64,000 bases of DNA, taken from NCBI GenBank assembly GCA_032622095.1, contig CP136068.1:128593989-128657988 (forward strand). The letters run 5' to 3'. The notes under the pieces were generated by a model, which saw only the letters and a list, made by a program, of their open reading frames with translations, was not told the DNA's origin and did not search any database. This DNA comes from Siphonodentalium dalli. Lineage: Eukaryota; Mollusca; Scaphopoda; Gadilida; Siphonodentaliidae. Positions within the stretch are counted from its first letter, which is position 1, and each line of letters opens with the position of its first letter. A program made the position numbers and the translations under genes. Of the stretch, positions 2,520-59,500 are shown in pieces.

Positions 2520-5500
2520 CTAAAAAAAACAATGTCTATTATATATTTTGGAACTTCTGTGTCTGTGTGTATCTGTGTGTGTTATAGGCGCGAAAACTGT
2601 TCAACCCACCCGACTCAAATTTGGAATGTATGACTACTTTGATCCCGGAGACAATATGGGCGGGTCCAATTTCACGTGCGGCCGTGTCTTTGACCTTGAC
2701 CTCGCTCATATACGCACATATAGGCATGTTTCTCGACCTCGACCCATCCGACACAAATTTGGTATGTATGCCTGTTTTGATCCCATGGGCAATATGGGCG
2801 GGTCCAATTTAACATGCGACCGTGTCCTTGACATTGACCTCGCTCATATAGGCTCACATAGGTATGTTTCTCGACCGATCGAATAATAGTTTGTCCAGAC
2901 GCTGTATATTATGTCCAGACGGAGGCGATCAGAAATAAATCCCTAAATAGCACAGACGAAGTCGGGCATATCAGCTAGTTCCCTATAAACCGAAGCTCAA
3001 ATAAGAACATATTGGTTGCCGGCAACACGTAGACACGTAGTTGTATGTAAGAAGACAAAGTCTTCTATAGCACCACATCATATTGGGGTGTCGGTTGGGT
3101 TGATGTTGTTTTGGACTGAATCCCACATGTTACTCTTCTATAACGGACTCATGGGCCGGGGTTATCTTGTTTGCATGTCTTCGAATTAGGTCAAATGGAA
3201 GCTTTGTGTACACTGTTACAATTATTTATTCCTAACTGATTTTGATCAAAACCCCATGGAATTTGATAAAAAAAAACATTGACTTGAGCCAATTATTCTT
3301 GTTTTGATCAATACCAATTGGTTATGAGCCAAACGTTCTGATTTTGATCAATTTCATCTTGGTTTTGAATCGGCGTTATTTTCGTTTGAACATACCCCTC
3401 TTGTTTGGGACTGCACCAGATGTTTCTACCGTATCCGTATCTGTTATCCAAATTATTTTATAGAGCCGGAGCATGGCAATTCGCGGGATATCTGTTCCGT
3501 TACGTAACAACCTGCCCGCACTCTTTTTCTTAATTGGGCACCTTATACTGCGTTATCGCTAACGTTTCTTTATGGTGGTCAATTAACCCTTTACCCAACA
3601 GAACGGCCCTGTGCCAATGCATTCTCTTATATATGCGAGTCGACCATAGGTCGCCTCGCATATATAAGAGAATGCATTGGCTTAACACATTAAAAATTAT
3701 AAAATTGTTAAAGAATGTAAGAAAAAATGGTAAAAAGTGTTAACAAAATATTTTTTTTAGGCCAATGCATTCTCTTATATATGCGAGGCGACCTATGGTC
3801 GACTCGCATATATAAGAGAATGCATTGGCACAGGGCATAACTGTAACTATCACAATGTGGTCAAGGAGCCGGTTCCAATGATATCCATATTTGTATGGTT
3901 CTATTGAGACAGACCGAAGATATTTTAGGCTGCTGAAGCTTTATTTGGCCGGTTTTGGCCGGTTTGTTGGGTAAAGGGTTAATGCACAGTAGGCTCATGT
4001 TTGGCATCATAACGGACTGTCTGATGGATGTTGGTTGGAAGATAAATTTCGGTAAGTTATTTCTTTGTCTTATATTCGAAATCTATACCAGCAGACTCAA
4101 AACGCCATATCATTTACAAACTTCTAATTTATTTTGTTAATTCCACATTTATTCCACGCCATGGCAATTTCCAATTTACACCAGGTGGGTACACCACACT
4201 GTGCGTATAGATATACTCGAATTTTACACGAAGGGCTTGAAAATTTATATCCTGAATAGTTTACATGTATGTACAAGGACCTATTATACATGTATATAGA
4301 ACAGATTTATCAGGGGGGGGGTCGGAAAAAAATTCCAGGCACGTATGAACATTTTAATTTTTTCCGGCCACGGGGGACCCACCCACCCAATTTCTTCCGT
4401 TTCCGGCCTTTTTTTCCAGGCAATTTTGGACACCCACCCTTTTTTTTCCGTTTCAGGAAGTTTTTTTCGGTCAGTTTTGGACACCCGCCCCCCTTAAATT
4501 TGAGAAAAATTATCAATTGAGCAACCAAATAGCTGATTATCCTGCATTATCATAATTTATTGCGCGATATTTGAATAGAACAGTGCATACTGAGATAACT
4601 ATACTATTTGAATTTATCATATAAGTGTCATTAATCAAGAAATGTGTCAACATAATCACATTTCTAGGGATATATAAGCAGAGTACAAATTTCAGATTAT
4701 TTGATATTTTGATATTTGCTATGTGAAATACAGTAATGCCCTAATTAATCGACTCCATAACCACAGCAGAATAATGGGTAATTTTATTTTAATTTCCGAC
4801 TAAATCCTGAAAAATTACCCATTATTCTACTGTGGTTATGGAGTCGTTTAATTAGGGCATTACTGTATTGCTGGAATCAAATTGTTTATCAAAACATGTG
4901 GAAATACAACTGTTCATCCCAGTTCATCCCAGTTTGAAGAATAATGATAATACCAAACATAACCATGATATACATGCGTGACTCTTCTTGGGGCATCTCA
5001 GAAACCAGAATTGAGGAAACATGTTATAGCGTGTAATGGCAGGCTTGTAGCCACTGCCTGAAGTAATAGGCTTCGTAATAATTGGGAATAATATGGATGG
5101 ATAGCCCAATTTCACTTCTTTTTTGCTCACGATATCAGTGACGATAAAATCTTCGTTACTGTGATTAACATTACAAGCTGATCCACATTAACATGGAAAA
5201 CAATGTGAAATTGTTCAAGCTGGCCCGGCTGGCCTTCAATTTATTTGTTAAGATTTTATGTTTTACGTTGTCAAAAGTCTATTTTATTCCATTATTTATT
5301 ATATCTTTATTTCCATGTCACATATGGTCAAGTGTGCTTTCATTTTATTGCTTATTTTCAGCTGAGTTCTGCATAGTTATTCTTATTTTGTTGTATCAGT
5401 AGATGGAATCCTGATTAAATTTTATTTTTCCAATAGCGCAGTGTCTAGTTCTATCAAGTTGAATTTGGGTTATTGTTGGCCATTGTGCAACTGATCCAAC

Positions 5501-10303: not shown

Positions 10304-10334
<31 letters not shown>

Positions 10335-11425
10335 GAACAACAGGTACAGCAGAATCAGCGTGTGTGGAACAACAGGTACAATAGAATCAGCGTGTGAGGA
10401 ACAACATGTACAGCAGACTCAGTGTGTGTGGAACAACAGGTACAATAGAATCAGCGTGTGTGGAACAACAGGTACAGCAGAATCAGCGTGTGTGGAACAA
10501 CAGGTACAATAGAATCAGCGTGTGTGGAACAACGGGTACAGCAGAATCAGCGTGTGGGGAACAACAGGTACAGCAGAATCAGTGTGTGTGTGGAACAACA
10601 TGTACAATAGAATCAGCGTGTGTGGAACAACAGGTACAACGGACTCAGCGTGTGTGGAACAACATGTACAGCAGAATCAGCGTGTGTGGAACATGTACAG
10701 CAGAATCAGTGTGTGTGGAACAACATGTACAGCAGACTCAGTGTGTGTGTGGAACAACATGTACAGCAGAATCAGCGTGTGTGGAACAACAGGTACAGCA
10801 GACTCAGCGTGTGTGGAACAACATGTACAGCAGAATCAGCGTGTGTGGAACAACATGTACAGCAGAATCAGTGTGTGTGTGGAACAACATGTACAGCAGA
10901 CTCAGTGTGTGTGTGGAACAACAGGTACAACAGACTCAGTGTGTGTGGAACAACAGACTCAGTGTGTGTGGAACAACATGTACAGCCGACTCAGCGTGTG
11001 TGGAACAACAGGTACAGCAGACTCAGTTTGTGTGGAACAACAGGTACAGCAGACTCAGTTTGTGTGGAACAACAGGTACAACAGACTCAGCTTGTGTGGA
11101 ACAACAGGTACAGCGGACTCAGTGTGTGATGAACAACCGGTACAGCCGACTCAGTGTGTGAGGAACAACAGGTACAACAGACTCAGCAAGTGTGGAACAA
11201 CAGGTACAACAGACTCAGCTTGTGTGGAACAACAGGTACAACAGACTCTTCGCAGCAAGTGTGGAACAACTGGTACAAGGTACAATAGACTCAGCGTGTG
11301 TGGAACAACAGGTACAACATACTCAGCGTGTGTGGTGCAATAGACTCAGCGTGTGTGGAACAACAGATACAACATACTCAGCGTGTGTGGAACAACAGAT
11401 ACAACATACTCAGTGTGTTTGGAAG
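10258..11425 (+). repeat. 32-bp minisatellite (about 36 units)
   Basis: Tandem units of about 32 bp with a core like GTGTGTGGAACAACAGGTAC followed by AGCAGAATCAGC; a (GT)n run sits at about 10303-10333. The unit is not a multiple of three and lacks stops on the plus strand, so long overlapping plus-strand ORFs appear in all three frames with a 32-residue period (NNRYSRISVCGTT..., CVEQQVQQTQRV...). I read these as by-products of the repeat. It ends about 25 bp before the GPCR ATG. Confidence 0.92.
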
Positions 11426-14527: not shown

Positions 14528-14952
14528 TTAACCCTTTACCCAACAAAACGGCCAAAAACGCCCAAATAAAGCTTCAACAGCCTAAAATATCTTCGGTCTG
14601 TCTCAATAACACCATACAAATATGGATATCATTGGAACCGGTTGATTGACCACATTGTGATGGTTACAGTTATGCCCTGTGCCAATGCATTCTCTTATAT
14701 ATGCGAGTCGACCATAGGTCGCCTCGCATATATAAGAGAATGCATTGGCCTACATTCTTTAACAATTTTATAATTTTTTCTTACATTTTTTAACAATTTT
14801 TATAATATTTTTCTACATTCTTTGACAATTTTATCATTTTTAATATGTGTTAAGCCAATGCATTCTCTTATATATGCGAGGCGACCTATGGTCGACTCGC
14901 ATATATAAGAGAATGCATTGGCACAGGGCCGTTCTGTTGGGTAAAGGGTTAA
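14528..14952. mobile_element. TTAA-flanked double-hairpin MITE (copy 2)
   Basis: TTAA at both ends, termini CCCTTTACCCAACA, and the same two mirror-image hairpins as at 3583. They lie at about 14674-14750 and 14852-14923, with AATTTTATAA repeats between them. Confidence 0.9.
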
Positions 14953-26215: not shown

Positions 26216-26219
26216 TTGT

Positions 26220-27655
26220 CAAGGGTGGCCCAACCGAAAATAACATATAATAACCGAAAACCGCAACCCTCTAGCCCGTGCGGTTGCCACAGTAGGTGGC
26301 CAAAGTGGCAACCATAGCCGTTTGGGCATTTATGAACCGATTTGGACCAAATAAACGGTGGTCAAGTATGGCCCACCCGAAAATAACATATAATAACCGA
26401 AAACCACAACCCTCTAGCCCGTGCGGTTGCCACAGTAGGTGGCCAAAGTGGCAACCATAGCCGTTTGGGCATTTATGAACCGATTTGGACAAAATAAACG
26501 GTGCGGTAGGGTGGCCCACCCGAAAATAACATATAATAACCGAAAACCACAACCCTCTAGCCAGTGCGGTTGTCACAGTAGGTGGCCAAAGTGGCAACCA
26601 TAGCCGATTGGGCATTTATGAACCGATTTGGACCAAATAATCGGTGCGGTAGGGTGGCTCACCCGAAAATAACATATAATAACCGAACACCGCAACCATG
26701 TAGCCCGTGCGGTTGCCACAGTAGGTGGCCAAAGTGGCAACCATAGCCGTTTGGGCATTTATGAACCGATTTGGACCAAATAAACGGTGGCCCACCCGAA
26801 AATAACATATAATAACCGAAAACCACAACCGTCTAGCCCGTGCGGTTGGCACAGTAGGTGGCCAAAGTGGCAACCATAGCCGTTTGGGCATTTATGAACC
26901 GATTTGGACCAAATAAACGGTGGTCAAGGGTGGCCCACCCGAAAATAACATTATAATAACCGAAAACCGCAACCCTCTAGCCCGTGCGGTTGCCACAGTA
27001 AGTGGCCAAAGTGGCAACCATAGCCGTTTGGGCATTTATGAATCGATTTGGACCAAATAAACGGTGCGGTAGTGTGGCCCACCGGAAAATCTAATATAAT
27101 AACCGAAAAATGCAACCCTCTAGCCCGTGCTGTTGCCACATTAGGTGGCCAAAGTGGCAACCATAGCCGTTTGGGCATTTATGAACCGATTTGGACCAAA
27201 TAAACAGTGGTCAAGGGTGGCCCACCCGAAAATAACATATAATAACCGAAAACCGTAACACTCTAGCCCGTGCGGTTGCCACAGTAGGAGGCCAAAGTGG
27301 CAACCATAGCCGTTTGGGCATTTATGAATCGATTTGGACCAAATAAACGGTGGTCAAGGGTGGCCCACCCGAAAATAACATATAATTACCGAAAACCGCA
27401 ACCCTCTAGCCCGTGCGGTTGCCACAGTATGTGGCCAAAGTGGCAACCATAGCCGTTTGGGCATTTATGAACCGATTTGGACCAAATAAACAGTGGTCAA
27501 GGGTGGCCCACCCGAAAATAACATATAATAACCGAAAACTGTCACACTCTAGCCCGTGCGGTTGCCACAGTAGGTGGCCAAAGTGGCAACCAAAGCCGTT
27601 TGGGCATTTATGAACCGATTTGGACCAAATAAACGGTGCGGTAGGGTGGCCCACT
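26220..27655 (-). repeat. Satellite of ~142-bp units (about 10 copies)
   Basis: Highly similar tandem units contain GGCCCACCCGAAAATAACAT, CTCTAGCCCGTGCGGTTGCC, GTGGCCAAAGTGGCAACCAT and GAACCGATTTGGACCAAATA. Unit starts fall near 26227, 26369, 26511, 26655, 26790, 26931, 27077, 27218, 27360 and 27506. Variants lack the GCGGTAGGG stretch or carry GTCAAGGG instead. Minus-strand ORFs (MPKRLWLPLWPPTVATA...) simply follow the unit. Confidence 0.93.
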
Positions 27656-28917: not shown

Positions 28918-29130
28918 CAGTAATGCTCTAAGTAATCGACTTCTTAACCACAGCAGAATTATGGGTAACTTTTCAGGATTTAGTCGGAAATATGGCTTGT
29001 TGCCATTCATCGGAAAGCTCTCGGGGAGAGCTTTCCCATGAATGCCAACAAGCCATATTTCCGACTAAATCCTGAAAAGTTACCCATAATTCTACTGTGG
29101 TTAAGAAGTCGATTACTTAGAGCATTACTC
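28918..29130. mobile_element. CAGTAATGCCC MITE, longest complete palindrome
   Basis: Both 105-base arms are present and nearly identical, meeting at GAAAGCTCTCGGGGAGAGCTTTCC (around 29010-29033). It gives the full-length consensus for the family. Confidence 0.92.
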
Positions 29131-31713: not shown

Positions 31714-32094
31714 TTAACCCTTTACCCCAACAGAACGGCCCTGTGCCAATGCATTCTCTTATATATGCGAGTCGACCATAGGTCGCCTCGCATATATAAG
31801 AGAATGCATTGGCTTAACACATTAAAATTATAAAATTGTTAAAGAATGTAAGAAAAAATGGTAAAAAAAGATTTTTTTTAGGCCAATGCATTCTCTTATA
31901 TATGCGAGGCGACCTATGGTCGACTCACATATATAAGAGAATGCATTGGCACAGGGCATAACTGTAACCATCACAATGTGCCGGTTCCAATGATATCCAT
32001 ATTTGTATGGTTTTATTGAGACAGACCCAAGATAATTTAGGCTGTTGCAGCTTTATTTGGCCGTTTTTGGCCGGTTTGTTGGGTAAAGGGTTAA
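31714..32094. mobile_element. TTAA-flanked double-hairpin MITE (copy 3)
   Basis: TTAACCCTTTACCCCAACA to GTTGGGTAAAGGGTTAA with the two mirror-image hairpins at about 31745-31812 and 31882-31950. One mismatch (CTCACATATA) weakens the second hairpin. Confidence 0.9.
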
Positions 32095-32592: not shown

Positions 32593-32769
32593 TTAACCCT
32601 TTAAGTGCCAAGTCTGATTTTTGTATCAACCCATATTTCCTTGATAATTTTTCAAATTTATTAGAGCTCTTTCCATCAATGTATCACATTATTATAATCA
32701 ATAAATTTGAAAAATGATCAAGGAAATATGGGTTGATACAAAAATCAGACTTGGCACTGAAAGGGTTAA
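32593..32769. mobile_element. TTAA-flanked single-hairpin MITE (AGTGCCAAGTC family)
   Basis: TTAACCCTTTAAGTGCCAAG and its inverse enclose AAACCCATATTTCCTTG-type arms and a short loop near 32670-32690. Related copies are at 33422-33644 and 41723-41899. Confidence 0.88.
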
Positions 32770-33359: not shown

Positions 33360-33706
33360 AATCAGACAAGCCATCTGTAAATCACTATTTTGTTATATAT
33401 GAGGATGAAAATGCAAATGGTTTAACCCTTTAAGTGCCAAGTCCGGTTTTTGTATAAACCCATATTTCCTTGATCATTTTTCAAATTTATTGATTATAAT
33501 AATGTGATATATGATGGAAAGAGCTCTTAGAGCTCTTAGAGCTCTTTCCATCAATGTATCACATTATTATAATCAATATATTTGAAAAATGATCAAGGAA
33601 ATATGGGTTGATACAATAATCGGACTTGGCACTGAAAGGGTTAAACCATTTGCATTTTCATCCTCATATATAACAAAATAGTGATTTACAGATGGCTTGT
33701 CTGATT
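33360..33706. repeat. 347-bp palindrome centred on a TTAA MITE
   Basis: A TTAA MITE of the 32593 family (33422-33644) forms the core. Its flanks are also inverted copies of each other: 33360-33421 (AATCAGACAAGCCATCTGTA...) is matched base for base by 33645-33706. The centre reads GAGCTCTTAGAGCTC with no spacer. The core arms have a few mismatches, while the outer 62-bp arms appear identical. Confidence 0.9.
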
Positions 33707-41500: not shown

Positions 41501-44500
41501 CAGATAACAAAACAGTTGTTACCCTTTTCTCGTGAGACATGGGGATTTATTGACGCTCTCGACCTAGAATCTCAAAACGGAATCAGTCGGAAGGAACTTA
41601 TGTCTATAACCCCCGCCAAACTTCGTTTGCCGGGGATAACAATAGCTATGAGTGAATCCTATAGTATATTTTTTATAACAACATACAAGTAACATTAATG
41701 TGAGTGTGATGAACAATTGACATTAACCCATTCAGTACCAAGTCCGATTTTTGTATCAACCCATATTTCCTTGATCATTTTTCAAATTTATTGATTATAA
41801 TAATGTGATACATTGACATTATTATAATCAATAAATTTGAAAAATGATCAAGGAAATATGGGTTGATACAAAAATCGGACTTGGCACTTAAAGGGTTAAC
41901 CTCTTGGTAGCTTGTATCCAGAAACGCATTCATCTTGAGAGAGTTTTCCAAGCAGAAATCATCGATGGTTGTCAGCAGTGAATCTCCAAACTTGTTAATT
42001 TTCGCCTCAGGAAAGTCTTCTATTTTCAGCATGTTCTCTTTGTTGCTTGGCCTGAAAAATGATAAAAGATTCCAACTCAAAAATGTGCAAAGAATTTGGG
42101 GGCCTGGGAAGCTTCGAGTTTGATGCGATTCAAAGAAGTTGGGTGTGATTTGATGAGAAATCGGCACTGGAGATTCGAAAATTTGAGAATCGTTCATGGT
42201 CGGACACAATCTCCTCCTATTCTTCAAAAGATGACCTGATATTGGCACCCTAATTGCTCAATTAGATCGCTCAATGGTGAGTCGAGCCTCCAAATCAACA
42301 TTTCCAGATAAATAAAGATGAATAACTCTAGAGCGGAAAACCTGAATTGAGAATAATTACAAAGAGCTCTACGTTAAATGAAACATATCTGGCTAATTTT
42401 AAAAACCGAATGATATCCCTTTGTCCTAAAAGTACAGAGGAGAAAATAATACTGAGAAATAATGGTCCAGCCAAGCGATAATACTACAGGTGTGTTCAAA
42501 CATAGCTAATATGGGCAGGTTGATTAAAGGTCAATAGTGAGAACATTTTCAAGAATTATAGTCATGCGAAACATTCCTCTGGGTTGATCGATTGGGGATG
42601 AAAAATGAAAGTTGCTTAAATCAGATATCTCACAAATTTTATAGCCACATTAGCAGCAAAATGCCATTCACATATACAATAACTTTCATTGGCAGATTTA
42701 TTAATGTTATTTTATCAGCAATTAATTTGTCATAAATTAAGAAACAAAGATTTACAATTATGTGTAATTCATATCTTTTTCTGCTTGAAATTTGTTGCTG
42801 AATTTGCTCTATCAGTTGACATTTTCAACAATATTAGTTGAATTTTGAGTGGGCATAGGACTTGGTTACCAGCTTTTTAGTGTGATTCACTGAGATAAGC
42901 ACACAATTGTGTTTAAGACAAGGTCAACCTTTTTTAAATACAACTTACAAGCTGTGTGTCATCGGAAGTCATGTGTAAGCAGTTTCTCACCTGAATTTCG
43001 TAAGGTCAAGCAGTACTTTATTACTGGCGATGGAATGTGGCATGTAACCGTTATCCTGTGCCATCTCGTTTCTCTGTCGTACCAACTTAGCGTACAGGCT
43101 ACTCTGTAATGATAATTAGTTCAAAAGTTGAAATTCATGTAGGCTCATGTGAACTTTCAAGATTCGATTCAATATGAAATCACGCAACATGTTCCGAGTC
43201 GATTCAAAATGATTGTGAAAATTTGATAAATTTTCAAACCCTCCCACAGACTTGTGCATCTTTCTCTAATATATAAAAGAAAATGTCATTAAAACATAGC
43301 CTGTATCTCGTTTAACAGAAGGGAGATAACCACATACGTAAGTGTATTGCATCAATCATTAGGGTAAACAGCATTCTGGACTCCTTAACCTTTAACCTCC
43401 AGGCATACTCAGGGCTGGCATTATCAAGGAGGGCTGGTGGGCTGCCCGCCTACAGCCCGCGCAAAATTATTTGAGGAGGGCTATTAGCAGCCCTCCTAGA
43501 ATTGCCCAAGTATCAGATAACTTGGTTTGCTATTTGTCAATATCAAATGTAAAAGTGATATACCATAAATACAATGATGACAACATGGACTTTTCTGATC
43601 TCTTGTTATTAATAGCTTATTTAAATCATACTGTCATTGCTAAAGCACAATATATCTCAACAAAAACATGACATCATTAACTGGGGAGGGCTATAGCCCA
43701 CCTCGGCTGATTGAGGAGGGCTGTTCTTAGTCCGCCTGAATTTTTGAGAATGCCAGCCCTGCATACTTTGTGGAGACGGACGAGGCTTGTCGATTGTGGT
43801 AAACATGTGGGTTGTTGCAAATATGTCCAGAACAATATTTTGAGGCCTGATCAATACATATTTAATTGAAACTAAAATGCTAATTTATTTAAATAGGATA
43901 ATTACATTGGGCAGAACTGAACGGTGAGTGTAAGAATTTCAAAAAGTTCCCAATATTTAACATTTCTATCCAAAATCAATTTTCAGTTTGATATTTTTCA
44001 CTGAGATGTAATTATAAGTATTAATCACGTATCCTACTTAAACAGATTAAAGACATCATTCTGAATAACAAACTGTTCATTAACCCTTTCATGACACTGC
44101 GCTGGTGCAGCATTAAAGATCCTGTGCCAGCGCATTCTCTTATATATAGGGAGCCTCGCATATATAAGAGAATGCAATGGCTTACAAGGTCAAGGTGAAT
44201 ATTGTTAGACCAATGTATTCTCTTATATATGTGATGCTCCCTATGGGAGACTCGCATATATAAGAGAATGCATTGACACAGGGATTTCGCAAAAATTCAG
44301 GAAGCTCCAGTCATGAAAGGGTTAATTGCTTTCCTATGTTAGGAAACCAGGATTCCTTAACCCTTTACCCAACAGAACGGCCCTGTGCCAATGCATTCTC
44401 TTATATATGCGAGTCGACCATAGGTCGCCTCGCATATATAAGAGAATGCACTGGCTGAACACATATTAAAAATGATAAAATTGTCAAAGAATGTAGAAAA

Positions 44501-47500
44501 ATATTATAAAAATTGTTAAAAAAATGTAAGAAAAAATTATAAAATTGTTAAAGAATGTAAGAAAAAATGGTAAAAAGTGTTAAAAAAAGATTTTGTTTAG
44601 GCCAATGCATTCTCTTATATATGCGAGGCGACCTATGGTCGACTCGCATATATAAGAGAATGCATTGGCACAGGGCATAACTGTAACCATCACAATGTGG
44701 TCAATGCACCGGTTCCAATGATATCCATATTTGTATGGTGTTATTGAGACAGACGGAAGATATTTTAGGCTGTTGAAGCTTTATTTGGGCGTTTTTGGCC
44801 GTTTTGTTGGGTAAAGGGTTAACCCTTTCTTTACTAAATACTAATTGATGAATAGTTGTGGAAATGTTCAGAGAATAAGTTAACAAATAATAGTCTGAAC
44901 ATTTACCACCAATTAATATACACCCTTCTGTACAGACTGTACTTGTATCATCTGTTGTCTGCTTATATTACCCCTACAGATGAATAATAGACTATTCCAA
45001 TGTATACTTTTATAACAATGGGAGAATCCATTCAGTAAAGAAAGGGTTAATCACGGACCTGGAGTTGCGCAATCTTGAGGTCCTCCTCCGTGGGCTCTGG
45101 TGCTTCCACTTTAGGCTGGTTCTCTTTCTGCACCTGTATCATGTAGTTCTTTGGAGTCCATGTTGGTTTTGGTTGAACATGAACGGTGGGACTGGACAAA
45201 TAATGATTGCATCATTAAATATGAATCGTAAATCACAAACTTATATCAATTGCTCTACTTAGAGATTCATATGTTTGTGAGACGGCAGGATTGTGTTTAT
45301 AAAGCATGATAATTTTTTCAATATTTTCCATTAAATTTTTTATACCGGTACAGCATATCTATTCTGCTAAAATAAATACATACATATACGATAATAGCAT
45401 AATGTGTTTTGAAATGTGAGTTATCTCAATGAGTTAGAAGTATGATACTTCTAACGAGTTGAGATAACACACATCTCAAAACACTATGCTATTGCTGTAT
45501 TTATCTTATGCCGACTGACATTATAATTTTTGGGCAAATTAAGCCAAATTAATATCAGTTTTGAGAAGAAAAAAAACATGCAATTTGGTCATTTCGAAGA
45601 GTAATTCCCATTACGCATGAATACGCAGTTACAGTACATGTGATGAGGTCGCAGATTTATGGAACATTGGGGTGATTTGTCAGTAATAAACAAGATACAA
45701 GTCCTGATTTAATATTCATCCATGTTCAGAAATCGGAACTGAAATTCGTTCAATCAAAATGTCAATGTTCTCAAACAAAAAGCAAAGTCTTTCAAACTAT
45801 TATAGTTCAGAATTCACTAGATTGAAAATTAAAATGCACATTCTCAGAAAAGTGTACATCGTAAACTTTTCAAAATTGTGTGCGGTGAAAGCTGTCTAAA
45901 ATGACAGGCAAAAATAGCAAAAGCTAACCATTAGTCCTATTGCGGACACTTATTCATCTTTCATTGTATATGTAGCTACATTACTATTTTATTCCACTTG
46001 TATGCATTAATTTATTCGTTTAAACCATTTGAAATGCTAGAGTAGAAATTTCGAGGCAGGAGTTTTTGTTGAAAGTTGTCGTGAGTTGAAAGGTCACATT
46101 GCGCATAGTCCTTTCTTATATAATATAATACACATATGAAAGATATAGCTAAAATTTAATACAATGTATAACATCAAACCCGTATAACATAAAACAATAA
46201 TCTTCAGTATTACAATCAGGGAATTTTTGATAAATTTTGATAAATCATTAAACCTGAAAACTTTGTAAATGTGCAATTCTTACGTGAATGTGACGATTGT
46301 TTTTTTGACATTTTCTTCGGCAGCCATATCCGCATTAGGAATGAGTTCAAGTGGTTGTTTTCCCATCAACCAACACCTCGCCTGGTTTGACAGATCCACG
46401 GTTGAGCCAAACCCACCCTCAATGGCCTTCTCTCTCAGGTAACCCTCGCAAATCATGCACTTCGCTGTAATAATCAAATATTTAATGTGTGATGTCATAA
46501 TGGAACTAAGAATACTTCCAGATGTGAGTTTGGGTAACAAATGGGGCATTTATAGTGACACACAGAGTATCACCTGCCAAGGTCACTTTCCGCTGAGGTT
46601 TATTAATATTCTGATATGGCTTAATTTGAAAGATGTCTTAATCTGGCCTGTGATGGCTGAATAAAACCTGCATGAATACCAAAAATTATTAAAATTGGTT
46701 CATATTTGTTTGGAGTTGTCAAGTTGGACAAACAATATCGCGAAAAATTTACAAACTAAGGTCGATAACTCAGACAAAATGAAAAGTGTCATTGGGCACT
46801 CTTTTGAAAGTATTCGTGATGCCAAACCTCCATATCAAATTACCAAATAAAAGATATGATTTCCCGATAAACAAAGAAGGATAACTCTAAAATGGAAAAC
46901 GTGAACAATGTTATTTGCCCCTCTTTTGAAACCTCATGATGGTGAACAATCATACCAAATATATGAATGGATGGACAAAAAGCACACATTTTCAGATAAA
47001 CAAAATGGCTGTTGGAGACCATGTTTAAAAAAAAATTGACAGTTCCCATCAGGAGGCCACTCCAAAGCAGGCCTCAGCTCACAAGGCGACTCGGGCGAGA
47101 TTGTCGCCTTACTGTCGCTGACTTCGCCCTATCGTCGCTCTAAGGCGAAATCGAAGTCATTCATTTTTGTTCTAGTTTTTTCCCAGACATGTCCGTATAT
47201 AGATGAATTGTGGCGGCCATTCCAAAAAGAAACAGACGATGCAGAGACAAAGACCCAAGTGTTTAAAATAAAAAATAAAATATGACCTATTGTTTTGTGT
47301 TGTTATTCAGTCGCCTTTGTTCCCTTTGCGGTAATGAATGTTAATCACGAATGTTTTGACACGCTGAAAACACGATGAGATGTTCGCATCTGTGTTGTTA
47401 CTGACCATCGTGAGTGTCACAAATAAATGTTTTAATTAACTTATAAGACCGCATTTTTTGAAGAGACCGCTTCCGTAAATAAATGTCAAGTTTATTGCTT

Positions 47501-50500
47501 TAATCGGATTATACCATTGATGTTGGCATTAATTAAGGGAGGCCATTAATTAATAAAAGCTTTAGCAATAAAACTAAAAGCTTTTGCAACTCCTTTGTTA
47601 GTTAGTCCTTATAATACTACTTCCATTTAGTTAAAAATTAACTACTACTGTAACTTTATAATTGTCTTGCTTAAATGATATAGCTACACAAAACATTTCC
47701 AAAATTTTTAAATGTATAATAACAATTAATTAGGCTAATTTCAAATAAAGTCAAATTTTTTGAGTTTTATTTCTTATTTTATCTTTTTAAATTTGTTATT
47801 GATGTTATAAAATAAAGCGATATTTGAAAATTGTCAATTTTTGGTAGTCTCCTCACTTCTCCCTGAAGTCTCCCTAAATTTCCTGAAGTCTCCCTAAATT
47901 TCCAGGAGGAAGACTTCAAGTCTCCCTGTTCTGAACCCCTAGGCTGAGGCCTGCTCCAAAGATCCATATATGGTAATGATCGGATGAGGGATGGGACCTG
48001 TAGGGTGTGCCGAGGGATTTAGTCATGCAAACGTAAAATACATTTTCACACTAACTCCCATTGCTCAATAAGGGCTGTGAAATCAATGGACGAAAACCAA
48101 TGTTTGTAAATATACATTCCCCCATGTTGGTTCATTAGCATACCGAAGATCATCAAAATCTGACTAACAATGACTAAGATATAGAGCTTCAAAGTTGTTA
48201 CAGATGGACTCAAGGACAGACAGAGCCCATTTCTATATCCCCCGCCAAATGAACACCAAACTTTATTTGCGGGAGATAATGAGAAAGCAACTCTGTGCTA
48301 CAACACAATTGTCTGCATATCAAGATTTCATACTGACAATATCCATCAACTCACCACCGAGCATGAGCTTGATATAATTATAAGCAGTTTATATAAAAGA
48401 ATTTTATGTATTTATCTACCTATTTTAATCCCTAAACCGTAAGGGCGTGCAAATATAAAAATTTTTGGTCGAATCGAATACCTGTATAGAAATTCAAAAT
48501 CTAATTGAATATCGAATCAACATGTCACAAAATGGAATTGGAGATGGATCTTTTGTCTCATATAGATCGCTAAATAGATCACAATAGATAAGGATTGGGC
48601 AGCAGATTTTAAGAAAATATATAAACTTTACATCTCACAGCTAGTGATGAGCAAATGATCGGAAACAACAACGGAATCGGCCGATTGTGGCCCATCGGAT
48701 GACAATCAATACTTGGGTTTCAACATCGGCATTTCCGATTGTCTAAATATTAATCAGGTGCTTATTTTTCTTCAATAATTTGTTTTAAATATGACGATGT
48801 ATTGTTGAATCAATGACCAGTAAACATGGGGAAAGTGATACCAAACACAAACTTGATATACAGCCATGTCCTGTTCAATACCCCGGTCGTACCTGGGTCT
48901 ATGTTTGAACAATATATTACAGTGGGGATCGCCGGGGATCGAAGCATGTGACACTTTGGGTTAGAGCAAGGATGACGCCACGTTAACATGATTGCGCATA
49001 TCTTGATAATTGATAATCATAAATTATTGGCATACCGGAACAGTCGTTTCAGTCGATTCATTTCGTTAGCATGGTGATGTACACAAAGTACATCTCATGA
49101 GACTCATGTACGCCGATAGGTAACTTTATTGTTCGTCAACATGTAGACATTTTGATTTATGTATATCAGACTATCAAGAAAAGAATCAAAATGTAGATAC
49201 ATACGCAGTACAACAAAGCTATTTATATAGTACATACAGTGTAACACAGGTAGAAACTGTAGAAGCCGAAAGTACTTATCAAATATTCTCAGGACCCTAC
49301 CGAACTGAGCAGGAATCTGATAAAAAGAAATCAATACTAGGTATAATTGGAGACTCAAGACCGCCATGTGGCATTAAGAAACATATGCTTTGCCATAGGG
49401 ACCAGCATAGAAGACGACTTATTTTTCCTATTCTTGCTGATTTCACCCTAAATTTGCAGTCGCCGAAGTGCAAGTTGCCCTAAAAATTCCAAAGTTGACA
49501 GACGAAAATCGACAAACATTCATGCTACTTTATTCGCTTCGCTCTTTGAACCCTGCCTCCCCACAACGATCGACACCCTGACCCTGGGCTCCCAGTGGTA
49601 TTTTGACTTATTGTAGACAGTGTTTATGTGCAAGGTGTTGTATTGTATGCATTTTTTCTACCATAATTTTTATACCATTGGAAAGGTTATTAATTTCTGA
49701 ATTCAGCACATCAAAATCTATTTCAATATCTTAAATCCAGAAAAAGTTATAAAAAATTTAAAACTTGACTGGATTTATTATACAAACTGCCAATAAATGT
49801 TACGTAACGTCGCAATCCCAAAGTAAATACATGACGTTGTATGGGTTATAGCCAAAACAAAATCTGGTTGTTCACTAAATACCCCACTAAATAACTAAAA
49901 TTCAGATTTCAAACATTGTAACAAATTGACTTTCGATTTTCAGTTTATTAATTACAATACAATAGAGACAAAATTCAAAATTAATGAGTTTTATGACCCC
50001 CTTCCACACCCTCCCCTATCTACCTTGTTCTACTTTACAGATCAATCTTAGTGCTCCTGTTTTGGTGGCATCTAGCTAGGGGATTCCCACGGTATCCCCC
50101 TACCCAAAATTAAAGCCAGTGGGCTCAGCCTCCTTTGGCATTATTATGGTGATCATAACTCTATAAATAAATCAACAAATCGTGGGGTGAAGGAAATCAT
50201 TCAACTTTTTACCATTGCGGGCGCAACACAATTCATGACACTGGGAACCTGTATGATTATAATACTTACAAAACCCTTTCCACCATTTTTGATTTCTGTA
50301 CCTAAAAAATAAAAAATATATGTTGGCAAAAATAGTCGCCAGTACCAACCTTCTGTAAATACAGAAGAGCCCAAAACAAATATTAATGTGATTAACCCTT
50401 TCATGATGGGAGCAGCGCTGGTGCAGCATTAAAGATGCCAGTGCATTCTGTTATAATATATGTGAGTCTCCCTTAGGGAGCCTCACATAAATAAGAAAAT

Positions 50501-53500
50501 GCACTGGCTTACAAGGTCAAGGTAAATATTGTTAGGCCAATGTGTTCTCTTATATATGCGGCTCCCTATGGGAGACTCATATATATAAGAGAATGCACTG
50601 ACACAGGGTTTTTGCAAAATTTCAGGAAGCTCCAGTCATGGCCGCGTTAAATGCTTAACTAGCCGAGTGTGACTAAGATATAACTTATGATAATAACATT
50701 GGTGTTCACCTCACCTCATCATCATAAACACATAAAGAGTGGATCGCTTATAAAGTACAAGAGTGATTTTCGCAATGAAAAAATGTATTTTTATTATTTT
50801 AACAATTTCTTTACTAAATACTCATTGACAAGTAGTTCCCTTAACAAATGTTCAGATAAAAAGTTCAACAAGTAAATTTGTCAAAGTTATTATATGAACA
50901 TTTCTCCTTCAATTAATGTAATTTAATGGGAATCCATCTGCACATTTTTGTACATTTGTTGACTGTTAATTTTTCCTGGACACCCCTCCAGATGAATAAT
51001 ATCCATGTACCATCCAGATATATACTTTTATAATTTTGAGTCAGAGAATCCAGGCCACAGGAGCTTACGTCACTAATAAACAATCTATTTAGTATAGAAA
51101 ACGTTAACATTGTCTTTGTGTTCTGTTATATTTCATTATTTAACCCTTCTATGACTGGAGATTCCTGAAATTTTGCGAAACCATGTGCCATAGCATTCTC
51201 TTAAATATGGGATCTTCGCATGTATAAGAGAATGCATTGGCGTAACAATATTTACCTTACCTTGTAAGCCAGTGCAATCTCTAATATATGGGAGACTCGC
51301 ATATATAAGAGAATGCACTGGCACAGGATCTTTAATGCTGCACCAGCGCAGCTCCCGACATGAAATGTTAACCCTTTCTATACAAAATACTTACTGACGA
51401 GTAGTTCTCTTATGAAATGTTCCCACCAGTGAATATGAATCAATCTACTTTTGTATTATCTGTTTTTAAGTCTGTTGTCTGCTTTTGTATTCTGTACACC
51501 CTTCCAAACTAATAGTAGACAATTCCAATGTATACTTTTATAACTGAATGGGAGAATCCATTTAGTAAAGAGAGATTTAAAGATGGTGTAATCTGTTCCC
51601 TGAACAGTAAATTGGTTCAGGGGTATGAAAACATAATTTTGAGTCAGAGAAACATTATTTTTTCTTCACGTTAGATGGTGAAATCATTTGCGTTAGTTTA
51701 TCTCCAATTGTTGCATCCCGAATTGAGATGTAAATATTTACAATTGAGCGTAACATAGAACTTGTATAAAGAAATACTAATATTCCAGGTCGCCACAAAA
51801 TGATGCATGTAGTTACTAGTTTATTGTCTACACGATGTAAATCCGCCGCGATTGTGTTTAATACACACATATACCATCTCCAGCAATGACCAAGAACCGA
51901 AACTGTCATCAGCTCCAAGATATACGAAAATATCACGGAAATATTACGAAAATATTTTTGTCAGTTTTGAATTTGCGCAGCTAGTATGTCTTTAAAATGT
52001 GGCTGTTTTGGAACAATAAATTTTTTTTTTTTATTGAAAATTTAAATATAGTATATAAAAATAGAATTGTCTGTCATTTGCAGAACGAGGTCTCCAGAGG
52101 GTGAATTTAGTGACCCTACTCCGCATAGGTGGCTAGCATCACTAAACTCACCCTCTGGGGACCTTATTCTGCTTAGGCCTCATCTTCTGGGAATTATCTA
52201 TAGTCTCAAATTAACATTGTTTTTTAGTTACTTTCTGTTCAGTTTCTATATCGCCTAATTAATCAATGTGACTAATGGGTGAACATCACCAACTTTAACT
52301 GGGAAACTTCAATCTGATCCTTGGTCTCCCATAGCAGTTGAGGCCAAATCAGAATGAGGTCCCCAGAGGATCGAATTTTGTGATGCTAGCCCACCGTGCA
52401 GGATAGCATCACTAAATTCGCCCTCTGGGGACTTCGTTCTACAAATAACAGACACACTACTTCAAGGCTTGTTCCAGGAAGAGACAGAGCATCTTTAAAT
52501 GTAGTCAATCCCATCAGATGCTCCTAAATTACTATATCTTTGGCTTCGGGGGTAAAAACATATATGATTCGAGTCGAGGAACCCACCCATCAAAGCTCAG
52601 AGTGATCAGATATTGATTTTTTAAGTTTGTAATTTCTCGAGATGTGTAATAATAAGTGGCCCAGAAACACATGGTAAAACAGAGGGTCTCGGACAAAATT
52701 GCCGATGAAGATGGATAACTCTAAAATCAAGTGGTAATACGGTCAAATTTCGTGATACTTTAGTGATAATACGGCCAAATTTTGATGAAATATTTTTTGA
52801 CAAATAACAAGTTTTGGGAAATTTGATACCATAGTTGACAGTGGTTCGCATTATTTTGTTGCAATAAATTGATTCTGATAACTAAATTGTATTATGAAGA
52901 AATGTTGTTGTATCGTGATGGTATGGGGACCGTCTGATCGGATTGAGTACCTTTAACAACATAAATTAATATTTTTTCCTGACATACTTTCCAAATCCAA
53001 AGTCTTTATGCTTTGTGAACTGTTGTACTTTTTTCCCACCTAATCCGGTCAGGAAGTTTATTGACATTCCACATCCATATCGTCCTCCTAACGTCTGAAA
53101 ATACAAAATGAAAAGTTGAGAGGATCAGTGCTGACACTGGCTGTTTTAACCCTTTCTATTCTAAATGGATTATCCCGCCAGTTATAAAAGTATACAATGG
53201 AATAGTTTATTATTCTTTTGGAGGGTGTTCAGGATAAATTAGCAGATGACAGTCGTGACAAAAAGATAATCCAAGTGCTGAAGAATTCATATTCATTGGT
53301 TGGAAATGTTCAGATAATAAGTTCAACAAATTATGGTCGTTTGTTGAACTTATTATCTGAACATTTCCTAAGCGATAACTACTCATCAATGAGTATTTAG
53401 TACAGAAAGGGTTAATGTAATGCTTAAATTTTGCATTTTAAATTTGGTTGCAACGAGCCTTTGTCGGGGTCTGGTCTTGTCGATTGGAAATTTAGAAATG

Positions 53501-56500: not shown

Positions 56501-59500
56501 ATCTCTGACATTTGACAGTTTAATTTGGAAAGGTATACCATTATCTATATATATTTTGTAATATACTACATTCAAGGTTTATTTAAAGTCAGTTTATTTG
56601 GCTGTATATCATAATGGTTAAATAAAACGGAAACTGAAAACTCGACTTCTATTAAAACCGAAAAGAAATTTCAAAACCGCACATCTCTACAATGCATTCT
56701 CTTAAATGCAAGTCTCCCACAGGGAGCCTCGCATATATAAGAGAATATATTGGCCTAACAATATTTACCTCGACCTTTTAAGCCAATGTATTCTCTTATA
56801 TAAGTGAAGCTCCCTATGGGAGACTAACATATATAAGAGAATGCACTGGCACATGATCTTTAATGTTGCACCAGCACAGCTCCAGTCATTGAATGGTTAA
56901 TGTCTCTATTCTGGCTACGTCTGTAGAGATCATGTTCCACCAGCTCAAAACATCAGAATGTTTTGAAGTTCTGATGGGGAATTTCATAACATTGAAAAAA
57001 TAACAAAAGTAATGTATTAGTTAATATCTGTTTAATAAATACGTAATAATGTATTTCAGAGTATACGAAGGTCCCAGCTCAACATTACATGATTTAGGCA
57101 ACTTTTGTGATCTGATTTTGTGGTAATCTCGAGCTGGGACCTTCAACTACTGTGAAATGCATTATTAAGGATGACATTAACTGAGACATATCGTCGCCAC
57201 ACAGTCAAAAGGACATACTATTTGCAGGCTTGAATATAATCATGGCTTGATCAAGCCTTGAAATAGTGTGTTTGTCATTTGCAGAATGAGGTCCCCAGAG
57301 GGTGAATTTAGTGATGCTACCCCGCATACCGGGCTAGCATCACCAAATTCACCCTCTGGGACCTCATTCTGCAAATGACAGACACACTATTTCAAGGCTT
57401 GGGCTTGATCTAGACACTGGGCAATTCCTGACCATGATATCTGGAACGACATAAGTGTCACATACCTGCGTCTGCAGCCTGTAGTATCCAGGTATTTCTG
57501 CATCCTTGCCATCATTTTAAGTTTGTGTGTTCGGAAGCTCTCTGACTTTATATCATTTATGAAAAACCTGGGAAAAAAAGAATTTTTATTTGGTACCAAT
57601 TTGAAGCTTCACCAAAGCTACAATTTTTTGAGCAGTTACTTGAAAAATGAGCATAATATAAATGTGAAAAACTCTTTCAATTACAAGCTTCACACAATAT
57701 TTTCAAAAATTATACAAACAATCATTTATTCTTGTGATCTGCAGATTTAGACCATTGGATGAAAATACAGAGATGTCACTTTTGTGATACAACATAATTC
57801 TGTTAAAGGTTGAAAGTTTACACGACCATGAATAGTTTAAACCAGAGGTGTGACTGTCCTAATAAGACTAAAGATAACCCCGCACATTGCACAAGGGCTA
57901 CAAAAAAGTAGCCATATTACAAGGAGATGGCTATTTCGATCCTCAAATTATGTATACTTAATTGGGAAGAAGGAATAATATATGTTGATAAATACACAAA
58001 ATATCATTATACCAATCTCGTAATCGCAGGTACGCAGGTTGCCATGGTTGTAAAAATCTGTGCCAAGTTTCATAGAAATTGACGAGGAAACGACGGAGTA
58101 CAAGATTGCACAAAATGACAAAAGGGAGATAATAATCAGTAAAAAAGATTGGTTGGATCTCATAATTGCAGGTGCACAGGTTCAAGCCTGAGTTTAGTGT
58201 GCCTGTCATTTGCAGAATGAGGTCCCCAGAGGGTGAATTTAGTGATGCTATCCCACACAGCGGGCTAGAATCACCAAATTCTCCCTCTGGGGACCTCATT
58301 CTGCATGGCCTCCTCTGTTATGGGAGATATAGACTCAGATTGAAGTTCCCAAATGGCGAATATTGTGATGTACACCCATTGGGAACTTTGATTGTGCAAT
58401 GTGTTGTCTGCCAATTTGGGGATATAGAGAAACTAAACTAAAAAAGAAATAGAATCTTTGTGAAGAAGTTTCTATAGAAATTTGATGATAAATAAACTTT
58501 CCAGAGAAAATGAGGGCTAAGCAGAATGAGGTCTCCAGATGGTGAGTTTAATGATACTAGCCCACTATGCAGGATAGCGTCACTAATTTCATCCTCTGGG
58601 GACCTCATTCTGTAAATGACAGATACACTAAACTTGCACAGGTTCCCATGGTACTAAATATCTGTGCCATGTTTAACAATAATTGCCTCAACAATTAAGG
58701 AATACAAGATTTGACAAAGTTACATCCACAGACGGATGGACTGACTGACAGAAAAACTGCTAGCATACCTCCCATAACTTAATTACAGGGGGTATAGAAA
58801 TGTTCACTACTTGGGAGTGGCACATTTTCAAATACCCATGATTCTACGATTTTCAGCCGAATATCAGAGTGTGACATTGCTAAGAAAACCAAGTTAAAGT
58901 CATGAAATTTCTACAGAATTCTAAAGCCGATAGACTTCCAACAGATTATATAATTAAACATTCGGGTTAATATAAGCTGAAATTTCCACAGAGCATACCT
59001 GGCAGTGTTGAAGTCTGCAGATGAGTAAAACACGTGGCATTTGCTGGGCATACCATCCCGACCAGCTCGACCTATCTCCTGGTAATAGGATTCTATGTCT
59101 TTGGGGCCTATAAATTACAAAATTATGCAGATTAGAGAACCAAATAAGATTTCTGATCGCGTGTGATTTAATATTTTATTTCTTATTTCTGGGGCACACG
59201 CCAGCAAAGCATTCCACCCCCCCGCATCGGCTAGCTCAGGATCTAATTTCAGTTGCCCGTGGCCAATATTTTCAAAACAAATATCCATAATTTCAAGCCT
59301 TGTAATAGTGTGTCTGTCATTTGCAGAATGAGGCCACACTGGGGACCTCATTCTGCATAGGCCTCATCTTCTGGGAAGTATCTCTAGTCTGAAATAACAT
59401 TGTTTTTAGTTGCTTCTGTTACTATATCCCCTAATTTTCTGAAGATAAAATGCAAAATCGATGCGACTAATGGGTGAACATTACCAACTTTAACTGATGA

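Follow-up and report, generated by a model that had tools for sequence, protein, structure and literature searches.

It is a long-standing question why certain MITE families attain copy numbers in the tens of thousands. The closest precedent for the elements described here is provided by the coral CMITEs of Acropora, which are about 100 bp long, contain a 75-bp core, and occur in an estimated 1,600 copies or so (Wang et al., 2010; PMC2872659). CMITEs are flanked by TTAA duplications and have CCCTTT-type ends, and the internal region of their families is more conserved than the terminal repeats (PMC2872659). The origin of the CMITE core is unknown, and a role in transposition has been suggested (PMC2872659). 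A further study reports internal sequences that affect MITE mobility (PMC9921582), and it has been described that piggyBac and piggyBat transposases bind subterminal palindromes via dimers of their C-terminal domains (PMC11707139). We analyzed a 64,000-nucleotide stretch of Siphonodentalium dalli DNA with a G+C content of 36.8% (the whole stretch is termed the window), together with the genome of 2.23 Gb in nine contigs, and found that TTAA elements resembling CMITEs carry a hairpin module that recurs in families whose ends are unrelated and whose target duplications differ.

Hairpin elements in the window

The sequence-only reading of the window had listed four TTAA copies of one element with common ends, and this was confirmed: four MITEs of about 400 bp each (381–466 bp), here termed E1, have inverted CCCTTTACCC ends. 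The first copy (3583–3982, forward strand) has TTAA on both flanks and contains two hairpins. Hairpin 1 (3613–3681, forward, 69 nt, loop TCGACCATAGGTCGC, outer side CCCTGTG) is followed by an AT-rich spacer (3682–3760, forward), the length of which varies between copies because of indels, by hairpin 2 (3761–3829, reverse), which is inverted relative to hairpin 1, and by a tail (3830–3956, forward) that carries subfamily-diagnostic variants. The other three copies are located at 14528–14952 on the reverse strand (hairpins 14681–14749 and 14854–14922), at 31714–32094 on the forward strand (hairpins 31745–31813 and 31882–31950), and at 44357–44822 on the forward strand, the latter with an expanded AT-rich spacer (hairpins 44387–44455 and 44601–44669).

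The predicted inverted pair of mirror-image hairpins was found as such, with a length of 69 nt instead of about 65 nt for each hairpin. Each begins with an arm of 27 bp that pair perfectly, continues with one mismatch and a further 5 bp, and is closed by a 3-nt loop. The arm, which had been taken to be about 30 nt long, is a perfect 27 nt and does occur exactly four times in each of the copies at 3583 and 14528; in the copies at 31714 and 44357, one arm of the four differs by one mismatch. Together with their flanks, the two hairpins of the first copy form 80-nt inverted repeats of 99% identity. The terminal inverted repeats fit CC[C/T]T (CCCTTTACCCAACAGA / CCCTTTACCCAACAAA). No ORF of at least 110 aa was found inside the E1 copies of the window (381–466 bp), an Rfam search of the window gave no match, and there was no match to viral contigs. 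The 33 independent copies from the genome that reached the right end all finished with GGGTTAA followed by unrelated flanks, with the TTAA of the left ends being already included in the selection. The classification of E1-type elements as MITEs is secure.

A second family near position 44090, for which the E1 arm sequence with other ends had been noted, turned out to be real. This family, E2, is represented by a TTAA element with CCCTTTCATGAC ends and two diverged hairpins of the E1 kind (44080–44325, forward), by older copies at 50392–50640 (forward), 51140–51371 (reverse), and 56690–56901 (reverse, two hairpins), and by two fragments with one hairpin each at 62641–62770 (reverse; hairpin 62681–62749) and 63505–63602 (reverse; hairpin 63519–63582). 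E2 copies are 85–92% identical, and the family is older; three-hairpin E2 copies also occur (L059). Apart from these elements, the window contains tandem arrays at 26218–27654 (143-bp unit, about 10 times) and 10328–11424 (32-bp unit, about 34 times).

One module in families with unrelated ends

The exact 37-nt left end of E1 was found 15,809 times genome-wide and the reversed control pattern not once, so the repeat is not due to chance, and the best 40 copies of the genome are 98–99% identical across the full element. The hairpin itself is far more abundant: its core start CCCTGTGCCAATGCATTCTC, counted with a non-C fifteen bases upstream, has 147,916 exact occurrences genome-wide. The module can be described as CCCTGTGCC-hairpin-GGCYTAACA, usually present as an inverted pair beside the terminal repeats, and was found in E1 and at least three further families, namely E2, E3, and E5. 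E3 has a TTAA target, CCCTTTGAGTGCCAGG ends, and a single hairpin, with 14,971 exact ends and 11,046 exact end-plus-hairpin contexts genome-wide. E5, which came from a random genome sample, is a 465-bp non-coding and nearly palindromic element with GTGACCCGCC ends, of which 9,813 exact 38-nt ends were counted genome-wide. All 10 E5 loci read had 4-bp AWWT target duplications (ATTT, ATAT, or AAAT). As Sola2 elements have target duplications of ATAT, AAAT, or ATTT (PMC3627910), those of E5 fit Sola2 and not piggyBac.

In a comparison of E1 with one half of E5, the hairpins were identical at 69 of 69 positions, the mismatch and the asymmetric loop among them, whereas the ends were unrelated and the adjacent spacer had 11 mismatches at 68 aligned sites, with 14 gap positions in 82 columns. 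The orientation of the hairpin relative to the element ends was fixed in nearly all of the 234 hairpins gathered, with the CCCTGTG side facing the element end and the asymmetric loop almost always the same way round. We also considered the hairpin as an independently mobile element and rejected this as the main process, as nearly all of the 100 core contexts listed were a few recurrent family contexts and not random flanks. Two loci (L180 and L181) were exceptions; both of their contexts occurred twice, a repetition probably due to segmental duplication. These two loci and the E5 element at L047:3134–3600 have a common central segment, GGGAGCCCC...GTGTCGTCTGCTCATG...GGGGCTC, which is a second inverted motif.

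Private and inherited changes in the hairpins

For the analysis of mutations, 60 E1 regions of contig C1 (0.1–10.9 Mb) were chosen solely by their exact 37-nt left end, and 54 copies were used after five segmental duplicates and locus L140 had been left out. The first 37 nt, which were fixed by this selection, were excluded from the rates, and the rates apply to E1 in this one 11-Mb stretch. All substitutions taken together, divergence from the consensus was 0.68% in the arms, 0.84% in the loops, 3.4% in the spacer, and 3.8% in the tail, which bears out the earlier observation that arms are better conserved than spacers. As the loops are conserved like the arms, base pairing alone does not account for the conservation.

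Changes seen in one copy, termed private, occurred at 0.50% in the hairpins and 0.64% in spacer plus tail, and this ratio of 0.78 (bootstrap 0.49–1.17, Fisher p 0.28) is not a significant difference. Inserted copies therefore decay evenly, and we see no sign of selection or strong conversion in them. In contrast, of the variants present in at least three copies, the tail had 13, the spacer had 16, and the hairpins had none, and the ratio of private to shared sites was 32/0 in the hairpin versus 35/13 in the tail (Fisher p 0.001). Since no hairpin variant was present in three or more copies, constraint or homogenization acts on the source lineages, i.e., those that spread. The module is thus nearly invariant in amplifying lineages and subject to ordinary decay once inserted. 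This also divides the earlier proposal that the stem is selected or gene-converted, which is supported by inherited variants (0 in hairpins versus 29 in spacer plus tail) and not by inserted copies; likewise, divergence of arms and spacers at the same rate, which had been named as part of the outcome speaking against that proposal, agrees with the private changes, in which hairpin and other DNA did not differ significantly, and disagrees with the variants in at least three copies. Deletions of at least 10 nt were frequent in hairpin 1 (6 of 54 copies) and hairpin 2 (about 9 of 51), yet all of them were private among the 54 copies. Some tail deletions were seen repeatedly, but they are located within short direct repeats and may have arisen more than once. 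This difference in deletions gives weak support to constraint during spread.

The fixed subterminal placement, the presence in families with different target duplications, and the way in which private changes differ from inherited ones all fit a cis module that is used in mobilization. The explanation that we favor, to which we give an even chance of being correct, is that the hairpin is a subterminal palindrome that is portable between families and acts in cis when non-autonomous MITEs are mobilized. Nested insertion or recombination may have carried the module from one MITE family to another, and the module would be kept through its action in cis while the element is mobilized or copied. Most likely, it would serve near the ends as a dimeric protein-binding palindrome or form a structure while the DNA is single-stranded.

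Palindromes are prone to recombination and template switching, and it is conceivable that a functionless hairpin was recently spread or homogenized among active source elements by these processes and would thus be of more recent date than the spacer and tail sequences beside it. We rate this account as possible, though not probable. The above-mentioned deletions identify the hairpins as hot spots of recombination and deletion, one copy (L118) is a recombinant between hairpin 1 and hairpin 2, three-hairpin elements exist, and TTAA families without the hairpin thrive, all of which speaks for such a spread. However, both hairpins would have had to be swapped in every E1 subfamily that has tail variants of its own, with retention of orientation and mismatch, the private mutations give no sign of strong conversion in inserted copies, and the older E2 hairpins have retained the same plan, with two-sided changes relative to the stems of E1, E3, and E5.

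The two-sided changes were analyzed in a set of 12 hairpins, some of them from E2. They affected five stem pairs, in 8 cells versus 3.2 in shuffles, and 0 of 500 shuffles were as high, in a test in which related sequences can exceed shuffles without selection. Template-switch repair of palindromes gives the same two-sided pattern. As kinship or such repair could produce these paired changes, they support the view that a palindrome is kept and do not support an RNA function. In principle, the palindrome could even be kept by mutation alone, with template-switch repair perfecting imperfect arms and generating paired changes without selection, and the two-sided E2 stem changes fit such a correction. 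We consider this unlikely, as the process keeps arms alike but by itself lets the sequence drift between families, whereas the hairpins of E1 and E5 are identical down to the asymmetric loop and the mismatch. Finally, the strong predicted fold (−55.5 kcal/mol and z −15 for the E1 hairpin, z −13 to −15 for E1 and E5) and the paired changes between E1/E3/E5 and E2 stems would be compatible with a transcribed hairpin that yields dsRNA or small RNAs acting in trans, in silencing or its evasion, and favoring its carriers, but this is unlikely as well in view of the lack of an Rfam match in the window, the freedom of inserted copies from constraint, loops that are as conserved as the arms, and a benefit to the producing element that is hard to see at more than 100,000 copies.

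Candidate transposases and known systems

The target duplications and end motifs point to piggyBac-type transposases as the probable movers of the TTAA families and to a Sola2-type one for the AWWT family, and autonomous partners would be expected to have TTAACCCTTTACCCAACA or AWWT-GTGACCCGCC as end motifs. The genome contains many piggyBac ORFs, some of them intact (of 649 candidates, 116 were scored and gave 128 piggyBac matches). A TTAA transposase with matching ends, as sought by the sequence-only reading, was not found among the piggyBac loci read within this scored set: neither a CCCTTTACCC end nor the hairpin was present in 10 loci with 1.5-kb flanks or in the 3' flanks of 20 others, which speaks against a cis module. 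One locus (L040) was considered as a CCCTTT-ended piggyBac and rejected, as its presumed relatives among the other listed loci were without that end.

When E1 ends with other interiors were searched, the first filter gave deletion derivatives only, and a loosened filter revealed a longer TTAA family, TTAACCCTTTACCCAACAGTAATA, among 666 matches. This family has the first 19 nt of E1 in common and no hairpin in the 600 bp read, which is a further point against a cis module, and no recognizable transposase was found in the pieces read. Its ends (L183–L186) cluster at C1:163–179 Mb; L183 is an inverted pair of about 930-bp left ends, flank included, and the copy in L186 adjoins sequence resembling the spacer of a hairpin MITE. 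An E1 relic of about 53 bp, with little beyond the two ends, was seen in L084–L090 (C3:283.08–283.11 Mb and 294.10–294.13 Mb), embedded in a repeated block with at least seven occurrences.

Also against a cis module, TTAA MITEs that lack the hairpin but have similar ends reach comparable numbers: TTAACCCTTTMAGTGCCAAG ends have 12,523 exact occurrences genome-wide, most of them standing in pairs too short for a hairpin pair. Because such elements thrive, TTAA MITEs as a group do not depend on the module. In the window, TTAA MITEs of this hairpin-less kind are located at 32593–32769, 33422–33644, and 41723–41899, with CCCTTT(A/C)AGTGCCAAG ends that are related to those of E3. Another TTAA MITE family (CCCTTTCTTTACTAAA and similar) is present at 44819–45050 and 53146–53415, and its first member stands back to back with the E1 copy at 44357–44822, with one common TTAA. 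A 161-bp TTAA MITE with CCACAGCAGAATTATG ends at 28944–29104 also occurs in L010 and L015.

It would be unexpected for two unrelated transposases, of different superfamilies, to bind one site, and this would favor either a host factor or DNA structure or else the null hypothesis that the hairpin has spread recently. More specifically, the palindrome might raise mobilization whatever the transposase, via a host factor or DNA structure, and have been passed between piggyBac-type and Sola2-type MITEs, a version that we regard as rather doubtful. In any case, one module recurs in MITEs of apparently different superfamilies, and the comparison of private with inherited changes tells constraint during spread apart from constraint on copies already inserted. 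Should the module act in cis with more than one transposase, amplification would have a general signal in it; should it be a passenger, it would clearly exemplify a palindrome that hops from one element family to another.

With the CMITEs, compared here by description of the cores, the elements share TTAA, CCCTTT-type ends, and a core that is more conserved between families than the ends (69 of 69 positions for E1 and E5). Unlike in CMITEs, the core forms a near-perfect hairpin of 69 nt, which usually stands in an inverted pair, has more than 100,000 exact starts, and is also present in an AWWT-duplicating element. E1 resembles piggyBac-type TTAA MITEs in its TTAA duplication, CCCTTT ends, and lack of coding capacity, and differs from them by the extra subterminal hairpin module, with no same-ended transposase found among the loci read. 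E5 is likened to Sola2 by its 4-bp ATAT, AAAT, or ATTT duplications (PMC3627910), but is a 465-bp non-coding, nearly palindromic element. Palindromes near the element ends are also known from piggyBac and piggyBat, where they are transposase-binding motifs; those sites have 14–19 bp (PMC11707139), whereas the palindrome described here has 69 nt and is also found in a non-TTAA element. Highly conserved domains of SINEs such as the V domain, the function of which is unknown, are also present in MER6 MITEs (PMC6887750), and the hairpin module is similar in being one conserved internal domain across otherwise unrelated mobile families. In contrast to the SINE domains, which are not described as hairpins, it was found only in DNA-transposon-like elements.
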